Below, piece by piece: positions 47,301-49,223 of a stretch of DNA of 64,000 bases. The DNA lies in the NCBI GenBank assembly GCA_943736015.1, contig OX031072.1, positions 16,147,501 to 16,211,500 on the forward strand, read 5' to 3'. The stretch is from Tridacna crocea (taxonomy: Eukaryota > Mollusca > Bivalvia > Cardiida > Cardiidae). The stretch's first letter is position 1. Each line of letters starts with the position of its first letter. Made by a program: the position numbers and the translations under genes. The notes under the pieces are model-generated. The model saw nothing but the letters and a program-made list of their open reading frames with translations, was not told the origin of the DNA and did not search any database.

Positions 47301-49223
47301 CAAAAATATAAAAAAAAATAATTTCAAGATAGACATAAACAGAATTTCTGATCCGTTACAAATGTGCAAAAATATTATTTCTGCATAAATCCTTATTTAT
47401 CGACTGTTACGGGAGACCACTCCTTCCTGCATGGCGTACTCCCGATTTAAATACAATACCTGGCTACTGCGTCAGGGAGATATCTCTTTGGCTCAGTGGT
47501 TAGGGTATTGGCTGTGCGTCCGGGAGTTCGGAGTTCGAATCCCGCTCCGATCCTTACTTCTGCCATGCATTTATTCATTTGTTTCTTTGTTACGGACTTC
47601 GTTCGTAAGATGGGGGCTCGTCCGGAATTGGCCATTGAGCCATAAATCCCACTTTGTTGTCCAAAATCGGACTTCCTGCCTAATAAGGCTTTGAGTCATC
47701 AATAAATGATGACTTTAAGAGGGGGTGTGTTACGACAGACCACTCCTTCCTGCATGGTCTACTCCCGATTTAAATACAATACCTGGCTACTGCGTCAGGG
47801 AGATATCTCTTTGGCTCAGTGGTTAGGGTATTGGCTGTGCGTCCGGGAGTTCGGAGTTCGAATCCCGCTCCGATCCTTATTTCTGCCATGCATTTATTCA
47901 TTTGTTTCTTTGTTACGGACTTCGTTCGTAAGATGGGGGCTCGTCCGGGATTGGCCATTGAGCCATTAATCCCATTTGTTGTCCAAAATCGGACTTCCTG
48001 CCTAATAAGGCTTTGAGTCATCAATAAATGATGACTTTAAGAGGGGGTGTGTTACGGGAGACCACTCCTTCCTGCATGGCATATACTCCCGATTTAAATA
48101 CAATACCTGGCTACTGCGTCAGGGAGATATCTCTTTGGCTCAGTGGTTAGGGTATTGGCTGTGCGTCCGGGAGTTCGGAGTTCGAATCCCGCTCCGATCC
48201 TTATTTCTGCCATGCATTTATTCATTTGTTTCTTTGTTACGGACTTCGTTCGTAAGACGACGAATTAGAATTTTCACCAGAAGTGCATTACACAGGTCTT
48301 ACCTTAAGAAGCCATATGCTTCAGTCCACAACTTTGGATTGTGTGATGAAAATTATACACTTTACCAGATGGAAAAAGAGAAGTCTTTTCCTAATTGAAA
48401 GCATTTGGAGACAAATGTGTCTCAAAGGATGGAATTTCTCTTTGATAGGGTAGAAAACATTGTGGGAAAAGGAGAAAATGCTGGTTGCCGGCATTTTCTC
48501 CTTTTCCCACAATGTTTTCAAAAGGCCCATTTTCTCACGTGGTTAGAAGTCAGGATTGTGTGGTAAAGGGTTGAATTGTCTTTGAAGTCTGACCTTTATT
48601 ATCAGAGTTCAGAATAAAGAAGGGGGTGGGGGATGATAGTGGCTGTATACCATTGTTCCAGGGTAAGGGAAAAGTTTGCACTTTGAAGCTGGTTTTTCTT
48701 AACCTTTTGAAACTAAGTCCCATTTCATGAGTAATTTGTCTAAAATTTTATTCGTACTTTGCTTTGGTAGAGCAATTAGTAACATACAAGATTTGTGAAC
48801 ATTGGATCACTGGTTCAAATTCCTGCATAGCCAACTTCTTTCCAATGATTTAGGATACTAGTCATAGGAACAGGATTAATTCCTGGTTATGTGGGAAAGG
48901 AGCCAGTGGCTTGAGAAGACTATCGTGTAAGTATTTCCAATAAAGAACGCTAGGAAAGCATGAACAGGTGCACTGGCTGTCAAGAAATAACTGAAATTAT
49001 GTTGAAAGTAGGGTTAAAAACCATACAATCATTCAGTCTATTATACTTTTCTATAGTCAATTTTCAATTTTTTAGTCATGTTTATATTGTTGGCTGCAAA
49101 TTTTGCATTTGGTATAGAGTTAAGACTGTGCTTTCTTTCTTTAATAGGTATGACAATGAGTTTGGATACAGCTGTCGTGTTGTAGACCTGATCACGTATA
49201 TGGCAGGAGTCGACAAGAAATAG
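29326..49223 (+). CDS. GAPDH: glyceraldehyde-3-phosphate dehydrogenase, complete, 9 coding exons
   Basis: Nine exons (29326-29357, 32572-32671, 34328-34434, 37529-37619, 40831-40946, 42747-42980, 43739-43817, 46324-46505, 49148-49223) splice without frame breaks to 1017 nt, 338 residues plus TAG. The enzyme oxidises and phosphorylates glyceraldehyde-3-phosphate with NAD in glycolysis, as a cytosolic tetramer. Seen: Rossmann motif INGFGRIGR (residues 9-17), NDPF with NAD-ribose Asp36, SNASCTTNC with catalytic Cys153, His180 in TTIHAYT, and WYDNEFGYS (314-322). Length is usual. Differences from the vertebrate protein: Cys249 for Arg in the DLTC-x-LEK strand, Arg299 for Gly in FDAGAG, Cys323 for Asn after GYS. 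None hits the catalytic pair, so it should be active. Introns hold at least twenty MITEs, a TRIM and several other repeats. Confidence 0.97.
29725..29905 (-). mobile_element. A-type MITE with hairpin removed
   Basis: CATTGTGGGAAAAG runs directly into TTTTCTAAAGGCTTC; outer parts and TTAA ends intact. Confidence 0.87.
29921..30112. mobile_element. palindromic repeat H, copy 1
   Basis: Ends CTCCAGATAAGAGGGAGTA and ACTCCCTCTGTCTGGAG; centre GTACTCATTAGAATTGTCTC / GAGACAATTCTAATGAGTAC is an almost perfect hairpin. Confidence 0.8.
30121..32019. mobile_element. 1.9-kb inverted-repeat element I packed with CCGTA motifs
   Basis: Left end CCCCGGTCACATATTCACGG and right end CCGTGAATATGTGACCGGGG are exact complements; the inverted match continues inward (CCGCCACGGAAGAGCTACG). 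Both subterminal arms (about 30150-30600 and 31670-31990) are dense in CCGTA/TACGG. No transposase ORF. No convincing target duplication (ATA vs CTT flanks). Non-autonomous DNA transposon of unknown superfamily. Confidence 0.75.
31275..31509 (+). mobile_element. divergent TTAA hairpin MITE inside element I
   Basis: Borders TTGA/TTAT; apex AAAGATGCTCAAAGTGGGCAA is unlike A, B or C; right flank has the GTTGTCTGCAGATACTTTC block. Confidence 0.7.
32224..32412. mobile_element. palindromic repeat H, copy 2
   Basis: CAGAGCTGCAGACAGAGAG to CTTATCTGGAGCTCTG; centre GGGTACTCGTTAGAATCGTC pairs with its partner. It lies on the other side of element I. Confidence 0.78.
32572..32671 (+). CDS. GAPDH: GAPDH exon 3 (NAD-binding)
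   Basis: Acceptor ACATTTTAG, donor ATG|GTTAGT. Encodes [15 protein letters not shown] and [14 protein letters not shown], the dinucleotide-binding fold start with the ribose-contacting Asp. Confidence 0.96.
32740..33535 (+). repeat. dispersed repeat K
   Basis: Repeated AAAAAGTAGGTCACATGG-like lines and an ending GGGCTATCATGGCCCTCAT, shared with 38215-38470 and 44640-45025. Confidence 0.55.
33543..33771 (+). mobile_element. TTAA hairpin MITE, subfamily A
   Basis: TTAA both ends; full hairpin (GAGATAAGGAG right arm). Confidence 0.92.
34040..34264 (-). mobile_element. TTAA hairpin MITE, subfamily A
   Basis: TTAA both ends, full hairpin; 63 bp upstream of GAPDH exon 4. A decayed fragment precedes it (33950-34035). 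Confidence 0.9.
34328..34434 (+). CDS. GAPDH: GAPDH exon 4
   Basis: 107 nt, CTATTGTAG| to CTGA|GTAAGT. Encodes [17 protein letters not shown] and KIQVFSE. An A-type MITE ends 63 bp upstream. Confidence 0.96.
34642..34860 (-). mobile_element. rearranged A-type MITE
   Basis: Left and right outer blocks adjoin (TTTGTGGATACTGTTTGCAA), followed by a lone left hairpin arm (GGGAAAAGGAGAAAATGATG). Confidence 0.65.
35335..35558 (+). mobile_element. TTAA hairpin MITE, subfamily A
   Basis: TTAA ends; apex CTGATAACCACC decayed. Confidence 0.88.
35559..35912. other. intronic, nothing recognised
   Basis: AT-rich GAPDH intron sequence without known repeat. Confidence 0.5.
35913..36140 (+). mobile_element. 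TTAA hairpin MITE, subfamily A
   Basis: Near-consensus; TTAA both ends. Confidence 0.92.
36303..36528 (+). mobile_element. subfamily C MITE, left terminus lost
   Basis: Starts inside the CTTTACTCCATAG end; hairpin mismatched (GGCTTGTGATTGGCAA); right TTAA kept. Confidence 0.87.
36640..36795 (-). mobile_element. SINE tail fragment
   Basis: CCACATAACCATCATCGAAA and CAATCCTTGGAAAGAATTTG match the body of 58766-59025 in reverse. Confidence 0.6.
36797..37025 (+). mobile_element. TTAA hairpin MITE, subfamily A
   Basis: Perfect central hairpin and TTAA ends. Confidence 0.94.
37103..37312 (-). mobile_element. A-type MITE, right hairpin arm lost
   Basis: Left arm then CCAGCTTTGTTTTC; borders TTAA and TTAT, the latter shared with the next copy. 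Confidence 0.85.
37309..37507 (+). mobile_element. A-type MITE, right hairpin arm lost
   Basis: GGTAACCAGCAAGGTTTTC shows arm loss; right TTAA lies 21 bp before GAPDH exon 5. Confidence 0.85.
37529..37619 (+). CDS. GAPDH: GAPDH exon 5
   Basis: 91 nt, TTTACAG| to AAG|GTATGA. Encodes [20 protein letters not shown], then [15 protein letters not shown] ends at 37507, leaving only 21 bp for the pyrimidine tract and acceptor. Confidence 0.96.
37670..38075. repeat. palindromic repeat J, copy 3
   Basis: Same inner dyad as at 2341 (GTGGTTTATTGTTCAATAAA); CRE positions decayed (GAATGATGTTACTC, GAATGACTTCATTC). Confidence 0.7.
38215..38470 (+). repeat. dispersed repeat K fragment
   Basis: AAACTTGGTCAGAATGTTTG and AAAAAATAGATCACTAGGTG as in 32740-33535. 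Confidence 0.5.
38640..38695. repeat. GCAGTCTGACC dyad repeat
   Basis: CCTGGTCAGCCTGCACAG faces GCGCAGTCTGACCAGGG. Confidence 0.55.
40308..40505 (+). mobile_element. tRNA-like SINE within repeat L
   Basis: GATAGATCAGTTAGTAATG and AAGGGTTCGCAGTTTGCC resemble A and B boxes; degenerate. Confidence 0.5.
40509..40612 (+). mobile_element. A-type MITE, left half
   Basis: TTCAACCCCATACTATACAA to GAAAATGC; ends at the hairpin centre, a common break point. Confidence 0.65.
40831..40946 (+). CDS. GAPDH: GAPDH exon 6
   Basis: 116 nt, CATTGTAG| to AAG|GTAATT. Encodes [20 protein letters not shown] and [14 protein letters not shown] is the conserved NAD-contact loop. Confidence 0.96.
41214..41448 (-). 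mobile_element. A-type MITE
   Basis: Full hairpin with CTGTCAACTAGC apex; joined to the next copy by a GTGA junction. Confidence 0.87.
41445..41681 (-). mobile_element. A-type MITE with duplicated apex
   Basis: GTTACCAGCATT occurs twice in the hairpin loop (41584-41607). Right TTAA. Confidence 0.88.
41931..42229 (-). mobile_element. A-type MITE with two internal duplications
   Basis: GTCCAAATTGAAAGCATTTG is repeated, and so is the right arm (CAGCATTTTCTTCTTTTCCC, twice). Borders TTAA/TTAT. Confidence 0.87.
42230..42449 (+). mobile_element. divergent A-type MITE
   Basis: Apex GGGTAGTAACCAGC; right terminus TTTGGTAAAGAGTTAT. Confidence 0.75.
42494..42721 (+). mobile_element. TTAA hairpin MITE, subfamily A
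   Basis: Near-consensus copy ending 25 bp before GAPDH exon 7. Confidence 0.93.
42747..42980 (+). CDS. GAPDH: GAPDH exon 7 (catalytic)
   Basis: 234 nt, TTTATAG| to GG|GTAATT. Holds catalytic Cys153 (SNASCTTNC), His180 and the substrate-loop [14 protein letters not shown] ends 25 bp upstream of the acceptor-exon junction. Confidence 0.97.
43168..43445. mobile_element. two A-type fragments
   Basis: A right half (43168-43251, TTAA end) and a left half (43315-43445). Confidence 0.6.
43478..43651. mobile_element. short symmetric A form
   Basis: 174 bp, both outer flanks of the short type, as at 1000-1176. Borders TTAA and CTAA. Confidence 0.88.
43739..43817 (+). CDS. GAPDH: GAPDH exon 8
   Basis: 79 nt, ATTTCAG| to GGG|GTATTA. 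Encodes [19 protein letters not shown] then TCCLEKG, with Cys in place of the usual Arg at 249. A MITE starts 21 bp downstream. Confidence 0.96.
43839..44068 (+). mobile_element. TTAA hairpin MITE, subfamily A
   Basis: Starts 21 bp after the GAPDH exon 8 donor; full hairpin; right border TTAG. Confidence 0.9.
44275..44400. repeat. GCATGCTCTGA-type dispersed repeat
   Basis: CATGCTCTGAGAAAAGGGGC and GACTGCACAGGCTAACATAG, as near 55185. Confidence 0.5.
44411..44638 (+). mobile_element. TTAA hairpin MITE, subfamily B
   Basis: Best B copy: apex TTGCTCGTAACGAGCAA perfect, TTAA both ends. Confidence 0.94.
44640..45025 (+). repeat. dispersed repeat K, copy 3
   Basis: TGAAAGCTGTTTGTTTTAATG and GGGCCATCATGGCCGTCATG end. 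Confidence 0.55.
45125..45348 (+). mobile_element. A-type MITE, left end decayed
   Basis: Full apex; right border TTGA. Confidence 0.82.
45349..45875. other. GAPDH intron with an exon-like ORF at its right end
   Basis: 45671-45880 is bounded by TTTTACAG and AG|GTAAGA, but in GAPDH phase it stops at codon 3. The donor belongs to element N. Not annotated as an exon. Confidence 0.4.
45876..46247. mobile_element. TTAA element N, copy 1
   Basis: 372 bp with inverted ends TTAAGGTAAGACCTGAGTAA and TTAACACAGGTCTTACTTTAA. TTAA on both sides; no hairpin, no ORF. It ends 76 bp before GAPDH exon 9. Confidence 0.82.
46324..46505 (+). CDS. GAPDH: GAPDH exon 9
   Basis: 182 nt, CCTTGCAG| to TCATG|GTAAGT. 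Encodes [39 protein letters not shown] and FVKLVSW. Confidence 0.96.
46600..47097. mobile_element. run of four partial A-type MITEs
   Basis: Hairpin units 46600-46723, 46720-46855, 46875-47000 and 47040-47097 follow each other; the first and third end in TTAA, the last is cut by element N. Each contains CTGGTAACCAGC or GACCAGC. Confidence 0.78.
47401..47404. repeat. TRIM target-site duplication, left
   Basis: CGAC; repeated at 48258-48261. Comparison with element N copy 1 supports a single empty-site copy. Confidence 0.8.
47405..47610 (+). repeat. TRIM LTR 1
   Basis: 206 bp, TGTTACGGGAGACC to TTCGTTCGTAAGA. Confidence 0.9.
47489..47541 (+). promoter_or_regulatory. tRNA-type A and B boxes in LTR 1
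   Basis: A-box TGGCTCAGTGG (47489) and B-box GTTCGAATC (47533) are 44 bp apart, as in tRNA genes. Stems of a cloverleaf do not pair well. Confidence 0.8.
47611..47628 (+). other. TRIM primer binding site 1
   Basis: TGGGGGCTCGTCCGGAAT, one mismatch to the proline-tRNA site; directly after the LTR. Confidence 0.85.
47717..47727 (+). other. TRIM polypurine tract 1
   Basis: AAGAGGGGGTG immediately before LTR 2. Confidence 0.8.
47728..47933 (+). repeat. TRIM LTR 2
   Basis: 206 bp; differs near the start (TTACGACAGACC). Confidence 0.9.
47812..47864 (+). promoter_or_regulatory. tRNA-type A and B boxes in LTR 2
   Basis: Same boxes at 47812 and 47856, unchanged. Confidence 0.8.
47934..47951 (+). 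other. TRIM primer binding site 2 (exact)
   Basis: TGGGGGCTCGTCCGGGAT is identical to the proline-tRNA primer site of murine gammaretroviruses (18 of 18, from memory) and abuts LTR 2. Confidence 0.9.
48039..48049 (+). other. TRIM polypurine tract 2
   Basis: AAGAGGGGGTG immediately before LTR 3. Confidence 0.8.
48050..48257 (+). repeat. TRIM LTR 3
   Basis: 208 bp with a 2-bp insertion (GGCATATACTCC); followed by the CGAC duplication. Confidence 0.9.
48136..48188 (+). promoter_or_regulatory. tRNA-type A and B boxes in LTR 3
   Basis: Same boxes at 48136 and 48180, unchanged. Confidence 0.8.
48352..48574 (-). mobile_element. A-type MITE
   Basis: Full hairpin with CTGGTTGCCGGC apex; right border TTGA. 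Confidence 0.85.
48765..49015 (+). mobile_element. tRNA-derived SINE
   Basis: TGGTAGAGCAATTAG A-box remnant, ACTGGTTCAAATTCC B-box, and the body GTTATGTGGGAAAGGAGCCA as in 58766. Confidence 0.75.
49040..49124 (+). mobile_element. A-type MITE, decayed right end
   Basis: GTTGGCTGCAAATTTTGC to GGTATAGAGTTAA; ends 24 bp before the GAPDH last exon. Confidence 0.55.
49148..49223 (+). CDS. GAPDH: GAPDH exon 10 (C-terminus and stop)
   Basis: TTAATAG| acceptor; encodes [19 protein letters not shown] and GVDKK, then TAG at 49221. Confidence 0.96.

Follow-up and report, generated by a model that had tools for sequence, protein, structure and literature searches.

A probable Helenus-type miniature retrotransposon of the giant clam Tridacna crocea, with multi-LTR arrays and palindromic long terminal repeats

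Related miniature elements

Terminal-repeat retrotransposons in miniature (TRIMs) with tRNA-type promoter boxes have been described as Helenus (TRIMp3), whose long terminal repeats (LTRs) hold a tRNA-derived stretch with A and B boxes and whose hosts include molluscs (Kojima, 2024; PMC10886601). According to the available sections of that paper, animal Helenus families generate 4-bp target duplications and are proposed to rely on a Gypsy helper, tandem arrays are noted for the zebrafish family LTR-11_DR, and transcription by RNA polymerase III (pol III) is unproven there as well. The 51 bivalve families it describes all belong to Pteriomorphia, with primers of the tRNA-Lys, His, Ile, Pro, Glu or Ser type. 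Herein, a locus of the giant clam Tridacna crocea is analysed. The window, a stretch of 64,000 nt whose numbering is used throughout unless a contig is named, contains at 47405–48257 an element that is very probably a Helenus-type TRIM, non-autonomous, with tRNA-type boxes in its LTRs, and built as a three-LTR array inside a single target duplication.

As far as the available text describes Helenus, the two have in common TRIM size, A and B boxes in the LTR, 4-bp duplications (present in the clam family as in animal Helenus families), a tRNA-Pro-type primer, a presumed Gypsy helper and arrays; they differ in host, the published bivalves being pteriomorphs whereas the clam is a heterodont, and the likeness is one of description (PMC10886601). 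The Helenus box A pattern (TRGCY, YGG) is contained in the clam A box TGGCTCAGTGG, which is exact in 117/121 LTRs. At the place of the box B pattern GGTTC the window reads AGTTCGAATC, and 13/21 old copies of the family have GGTTC at the aligned position. As to a tRNA-derived stretch, the clam LTR shows the boxes and their spacing only, with no Rfam tRNA match and none by ARAGORN. The Helenus main text contains no mention of Heterodonta, Tridacna, Veneri or Cardi (PMC10886601), and no giant-clam Helenus appears in related or later literature among the matches listed. A Helenus-type family with old and young subfamilies in a heterodont bivalve was not found in the literature searched.

The plant Cassandra family shares with the clam element a pol III promoter in TRIM LTRs and arrays of LTRs and internal parts. 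Its promoter, however, is of the 5S type and its array units do not differ, whereas many clam units do, as given in the available part of the source, in which Kalendar and colleagues propose LTR–LTR recombination or template switching as the origin of the arrays (PMC7215508). Rfam scans of the clam region gave no 5S match and no sign of a Cassandra-type 5S promoter. The first-pass annotation had described the locus as a tRNA-promoter TRIM paralleling Cassandra; the anatomy is well supported, but the parallel is not new, because Helenus, an element of this very kind, was already published in 2024 with bivalves included (PMC10886601, in its available sections). A third system, biv-TRIM, is likewise a bivalve TRIM, with 202–218-bp repeats, arrays of the form TDRx_I(x-1) and a cardiid among its hosts; peculiar to it, in the available text, are a 77–80-bp inner part, the lack of a clear primer site, the polypurine tract GGGGAGA and a conserved TGATCCCAAAGGAC, and polymerase III is not mentioned in that text (PMC6934838). 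The inner parts of the clam element measure 117 and 116 bp, and TGATCCCAAAGGAC is absent from it. Finally, tRNA-headed short interspersed elements (SINEs) have A and B boxes in common with the clam element; they have neither LTRs nor a primer site nor a polypurine tract and use the machinery of long interspersed elements (LINEs).

Anatomy of the element and its family

Rechecking of coordinates and letters confirmed the arrangement first reported, which is LTR–internal part–LTR–internal part–LTR on the forward strand with CGAC on both sides (47401–47404 and 48258–48261). LTR 1 (TGTTACG...CGTAAGA, 206 bp) spans 47405–47610, and the middle LTR 2 (206 bp; 47728–47933) and LTR 3 (208 bp, with a 2-bp AT insertion; 48050–48257) are 97.6% and 98.1% identical to it. 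Between them lie internal parts of 117 bp (47611–47727) and 116 bp (47934–48049), opened by the primer site TGGGGGCTCGTCCGGRAT (one mismatch at 47611–47628; exact, and in its commonest form, at 47934–47951) and closed by the polypurine end AAGAGGGGGTG (47717–47727 and 48039–48049). This 18-nt site presumably matches tRNA-Pro. All three LTRs hold the A box TGGCTCAGTGG and the B box GTTCGAATC at a spacing of 44 bp, as reported and as located by a scan for paired boxes (47489–47499 and 47533–47541; 47812–47822 and 47856–47864; 48136–48146 and 48180–48188). Coding capacity is absent, none of the nine window open reading frames (ORFs) of at least 130 aa overlapping the array, and the two-LTR unit, at 529 bp, stays below 1 kb as for TRIMs. 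Three TRIM features are present: two LTRs within less than 1 kb of non-coding sequence, a primer site with a polypurine tract, and short target duplications.

The source genome (1.049 Gb, 31 contigs) yielded 106 first-look candidates with the LTR as query, 227 with the internal part and 1204 with the whole array, and the best 40 were scored for each; family counts are lower bounds and, resting on best-match copies, lean to young ones. From 60 loci (the places on the LTR list and 31/40 internal matches) plus the window, 67 chains were parsed. Perfect 4-bp duplications enclose 55/60 evaluable insertions (7/67 chains were not evaluable): 47/48 elements with two LTRs around one internal part, 4/4 multi-LTR arrays and 4/8 single (solo) LTRs. 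Among the single LTRs without a duplication, two share flanks (L034 and L035) and two sit in interrupted elements (L011 and L028). The exact primer site is found in 49/61 internal parts and the exact polypurine end in 58/61. Furthermore, 0–7 substitutions separate the two LTRs of two-LTR elements, and their complete absence in 11/46 elements (one of the 11 has a gap) shows that the family moved recently.

Three head-to-tail repeats in the window could also be taken for a plain tandem satellite without transposition. This reading is scarcely credible and was rejected, being contradicted by the 4-bp target duplications; in addition, the copies are dispersed over many contigs with differing flanks. 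The first-pass annotation had reserved it for a family lacking conserved primer sites, target duplications or boxes; all three are in place, the A box being exact in 117/121 and the B box in 111/121 LTRs, counted on best-match, mostly young copies.

An older layer of the family is represented in the window by a degraded LTR on the reverse strand (15031–15210; 76% identity over 180 bp, last 27 bp missing), which reads TAGCTCAGAGG at the A box and GTTCGAATC at the B box, with a spacing of 44 and a retained TATA-like box. Through it an old subfamily was found, with 3199 first-look candidates; the best 40 scored 83–100% (query included), and three short extra pieces 81–83%. The old-copy set comprises 21 members, i.e. 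20 loci and the degraded window copy. The old and young majorities differ at 29/206 LTR positions, distributed as 0/15 around the TATA-like box (LTR 42–56), 1/11 in box A and 1/11 in box B, against 8/32 between the boxes, 6/28 and 6/22 on either side of them, 5/41 at LTR 1–41 and 2/46 at the LTR end. This pattern, viewed without a formal test, suggests constraint.

Promoter boxes, polymerase and helper

The scan for paired A and B boxes returned five pairs in the window, namely the three LTRs, the old LTR (15210–15031) and a pair at 58774, whereas in 40 Markov-simulated 64-kb sequences the mean was 0.1 pairs and no sequence had more than 1. In addition, TTTT is absent from the 323-bp unit against 3.5 occurrences expected (2000 shuffles, P 0.03), with an AAAA control at 1 against 0.9 expected and 7.2 TTTT per 323 bp in the element flanks. 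It is held by 2/121 young LTRs and 0/61 internal parts, but by 14/21 old LTRs; the old stretches read CTTTTG in 12/21 copies and CTTTCG in 6/21, a mixture that would fit CpG decay. The boxes, their spacing and the absence of TTTT argue for a pol III transcript of the element, as far as sequence can indicate. As a separate observation, the pair at 58774–58829 (+) consists of TAGCTCAGTTGG and GTTCGATCC, 47 bp apart, and perhaps belongs to a SINE.

Several observations weigh against pol III control. The boxes of young copies are not significantly more conserved than the rest of the LTR (7% of block pairs equal them); when 198 windows of these copies are ranked by conservation, the B-box 9-mer comes only 71st. 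In the old set, an A-box match persists in 16 of the 21 copies and a B-box match in 13, and both together in only 10. A covariance search found no Rfam tRNA match for the window LTR at E<=10 or for the 20 old-copy loci at E<=1, ARAGORN found no tRNA in the window, and folding of the tRNA-like LTR part gave no structure (z +0.86); with no tRNA match in Rfam, the sequence supports promoter boxes, not a tRNA fold. The TTTT depletion is weaker when the parts are taken singly (P 0.08 for the LTR, P 0.51 for the internal part). Furthermore, a TATA-like TTTAAATA at LTR 42–49 (47446–47453), exact in 115/121 copies, lies about 30 bp upstream of a palindrome centre within the LTR, the right distance for polymerase II (pol II).

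An ordinary pol II-driven TRIM, in which the A and B boxes are unused relics of an inserted SINE head, would account for a TATA-like box as well kept as the boxes, for the missing tRNA fold and for the non-significant box conservation among young copies. It is nevertheless judged rather unlikely, since young copies do carry both boxes at the 44-bp spacing, the old and young majorities differ at a single position in each box compared with 29/206 overall, and TTTT is lacking from the unit. Moreover, the sole AATAAA sites of the window array (47701 and 48023, both in internal parts; ATTAAA does not occur) would end a pol II transcript before the 3' repeat. If the RNA begins at the palindrome centre, as it may, its start would lie 7–12 nt ahead of the A box, the position expected for pol III; the TATA-like box about 30 bp farther upstream would suit pol II just as well.

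Under the preferred Helenus-type reading, the RNA would start at about LTR 73–78 under A/B-box control and read through the TTTT-free unit into the 3' LTR. A tRNA-Pro would then prime reverse transcription, and proteins of a Ty3/gypsy element would copy and integrate the product. An autonomous element with matching LTR ends, as envisaged by the first-pass annotation, was sought by a primer-site pattern and not found, a further point against this scheme. With a non-T after GGGAT the pattern occurs at 210 places, the first 100 of them listed; when A or C is required as the second base after GGGAT, it occurs at 37. Of the 20/37 that were read, 16 carry LTR or internal sequence of the family or a relative. 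Four loci (L133, L134, L138 and L143) have other LTR ends, with about 5 nt between a CGTAACA-like end and the primer site. In favour of the scheme, one of them, L134 (C7:37368583), is an LTR element with the identical 18-nt primer site, and L146, near it, holds a broken gag in which a 235-aa piece matches the Pfam SCAN domain (E 2.9e-07) and, by reading, contains zinc-knuckle-like and DTGAS stretches. All four are unproven candidates for partnership, and the LTR end at L134 differs. L131/L145 was rejected as an autonomous partner: the 2.9 kb read contain no long ORF, and the locus is a relative with a palindromic LTR and a different promoter module. Two motifs sought among viral contigs gave 0 and 0 matches.

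Arrays, palindromic LTRs and their surroundings

Arrays were examined at 33 loci, giving 29 chains of at least three LTRs with a perfect duplication; after removal of the doubles L099 and L100, 27 distinct evaluable arrays remained, among them the four multi-LTR chains of the 60-insertion set. All 27 (18 of three LTRs, 8 of four and 1 of five) lie inside one perfect 4-bp duplication, whereas L091, L102, L104 and two L103 chains were not evaluable or negative by the array rule, L102 and L104 being resolved by hand. Differences private to one LTR were summed over the 18 three-LTR arrays, with gap columns counted and two three-state columns excluded; they number 20 in the 5', 83 in the middle and 30 in the 3' LTR. 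Of these, 7, 71 and 17, respectively, are alleles that also occur in at least 3% of 108 background LTRs. In 10/18 arrays the middle LTR deviates most, and in 2 it deviates least. For instance, the outer LTRs of L090 differ by 0 and its middle LTR by 8, and in L094 the figures are 1 and 11–12; in ten arrays with at least three middle-only columns, the widest spread runs from LTR 6–8 to 196. The window array has private differences of 1/3/2 (5'/middle/3'), with middle-only columns just at LTR 8–31. Arrays in which almost identical outer LTRs enclose a middle LTR from a different subfamily are consistent with reverse transcription that passed over two RNAs or along a multimer RNA and regenerated both outer LTRs at once.

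Arrays could also have arisen after integration, by unequal crossing-over between both LTRs of a single insertion. Such crossing-over would equally place all 27 arrays inside one duplication, and the difference-free L076 and L084 and the alternating L062 and L098 do resemble local duplication. As the source of the arrays it appears somewhat improbable, since it predicts a mosaic middle LTR, whereas the private sums are 20/83/30 and 71/83 middle differences are alleles found in other copies, as in L090 and L094. Copying across RNAs, in turn, agrees less well with the 8/18 arrays whose greatest deviation is not in the middle LTR, L087, L089 and L096 being the clear cases, and with the alternation in L062, L098 and L101. 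Some arrays have the appearance of local duplications that followed insertion. In the literature searched we found no arrays in which near-identical outer LTRs enclose a deviating middle LTR with alleles of other copies.

The LTR itself is an imperfect inverted repeat (LTR 31–126; 47435–47530 in LTR 1) centred at LTR 77/78, scoring 30 where 1000 shuffles reached at most 26. An old copy (L105) scores 28 against 27, and the degraded window copy is not significant (P 0.79). The centre, at LTR 73–82 (47477–47486) and presumably in the region of the RNA 5' end, reads GAGATATCTC in 119/121 young LTRs; in old copies GAGAATTCTC occurs in 11/21, GAATTC in 17/21 and GAGATATCTC in 1/21, and the exchange of GAGATATCTC for GAGAATTCTC between young and old centres is a paired change. 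Some copies go further. L102 starts with a perfect 258-bp palindrome, the reverse complement of LTR 78–206 followed by LTR 78–206, continues with the primer site and internal part–LTR–internal part–LTR, and is flanked by the duplication CAAG. L104 is similar, with a partly deleted left arm and the duplication AGGT; L024 is a messier head-to-head structure, and L145 (C4:45289200–45292100) has palindrome arms that measure about 149 bp and mismatch in places. Genome-wide, 98 matching 34-bp palindrome centres were counted (<=2 mismatches; 38 with none), against 0 for the control.

A palindromic RNA 5' end might explain such copies, a proposal we regard as possible but falling somewhat short of even odds. 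The RNA would start at LTR 73–78, 7–12 nt before the A box, and a tRNA primer would give a strong-stop cDNA. The 3' end of that cDNA, a copy of the palindromic RNA end, could prime on another, longer minus strand; the resulting 5' LTR would consist of the reverse complement of R-U5 followed by R-U5, and integrase would then use two U5-type ends. The upstream, promoter half of the LTR would itself be an old fold-back copy. Less favourable to this proposal, only 3/98 palindrome centres were read, and no target duplication was found at L145 on reading its flanks. A DNA-level inverted duplication after insertion would draw on the normal LTR, which has imperfect inverted symmetry around this very centre to begin with, and would suit the untidy L024 and the duplication-free L145. 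It is nonetheless quite unlikely, the 4-bp duplications of L102 and L104 lying just outside the inverted U5 end, where a later inversion would hardly place them exactly. No polypurine tract, the expected neighbour of a 3' LTR, was seen directly before a palindromic LTR in 147 stretches examined. The literature searched yielded no copies in which a palindrome of LTR 78–206 forms the 5' LTR, as it does here, in two cases with target duplications; by title and abstract, no publication on palindromic LTRs with strong-stop priming appeared among the matches listed, and the Helenus main text has no mention of the strings palindrom, inverted, hairpin or subfamil (PMC10886601).

Separately, L145 has the LTR end and primer site of the family but a different box module, which may perhaps reflect module exchange between families. 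Two pairs of palindrome centres, 3.0 kb (C3:13871585/13874591) and 3.6 kb (C2:32620089/32623639) apart, are possible longer palindromic-LTR elements; a primer site follows each C3 centre, and the first of the C2 pair, at a distance of about 130 bp.

Other features of the window include a palindromic repeat around AAGGAGAAAATGCTGG (46600–47100 and 48450–48520), several copies of which flank the element; it resembles a hairpin or a miniature inverted-repeat transposable element (MITE), and the copy at 48450–48520 matches several miRNA families below gathering cut-offs. An open frame at 42550–42984 (+) contains what we take to be a GAPDH-like exon, beyond which the other GAPDH motifs tried were not found, and a second at 54206–54928 (-) contains GQNFAMNEIKVIVSRTLRRY, presumably a cytochrome P450-like stretch. 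The mitochondrial contig (C31) has 29,009 bases, which is large for animal mitochondrial DNA; its COX1 shares 97% identity with a Tridacna derasa cluster and 83% with the second-best match (Lymnocardiinae), in keeping with a giant-clam host.

Altogether, these results would extend Helenus-type elements to a heterodont bivalve, the giant clam. The arrays and palindromic LTRs provide sequence evidence on the possible origin of TRIM arrays and on the putative RNA start of a TRIM with pol III boxes. Both array formation and RNA start become testable with 5'-end mapping and clam assemblies.

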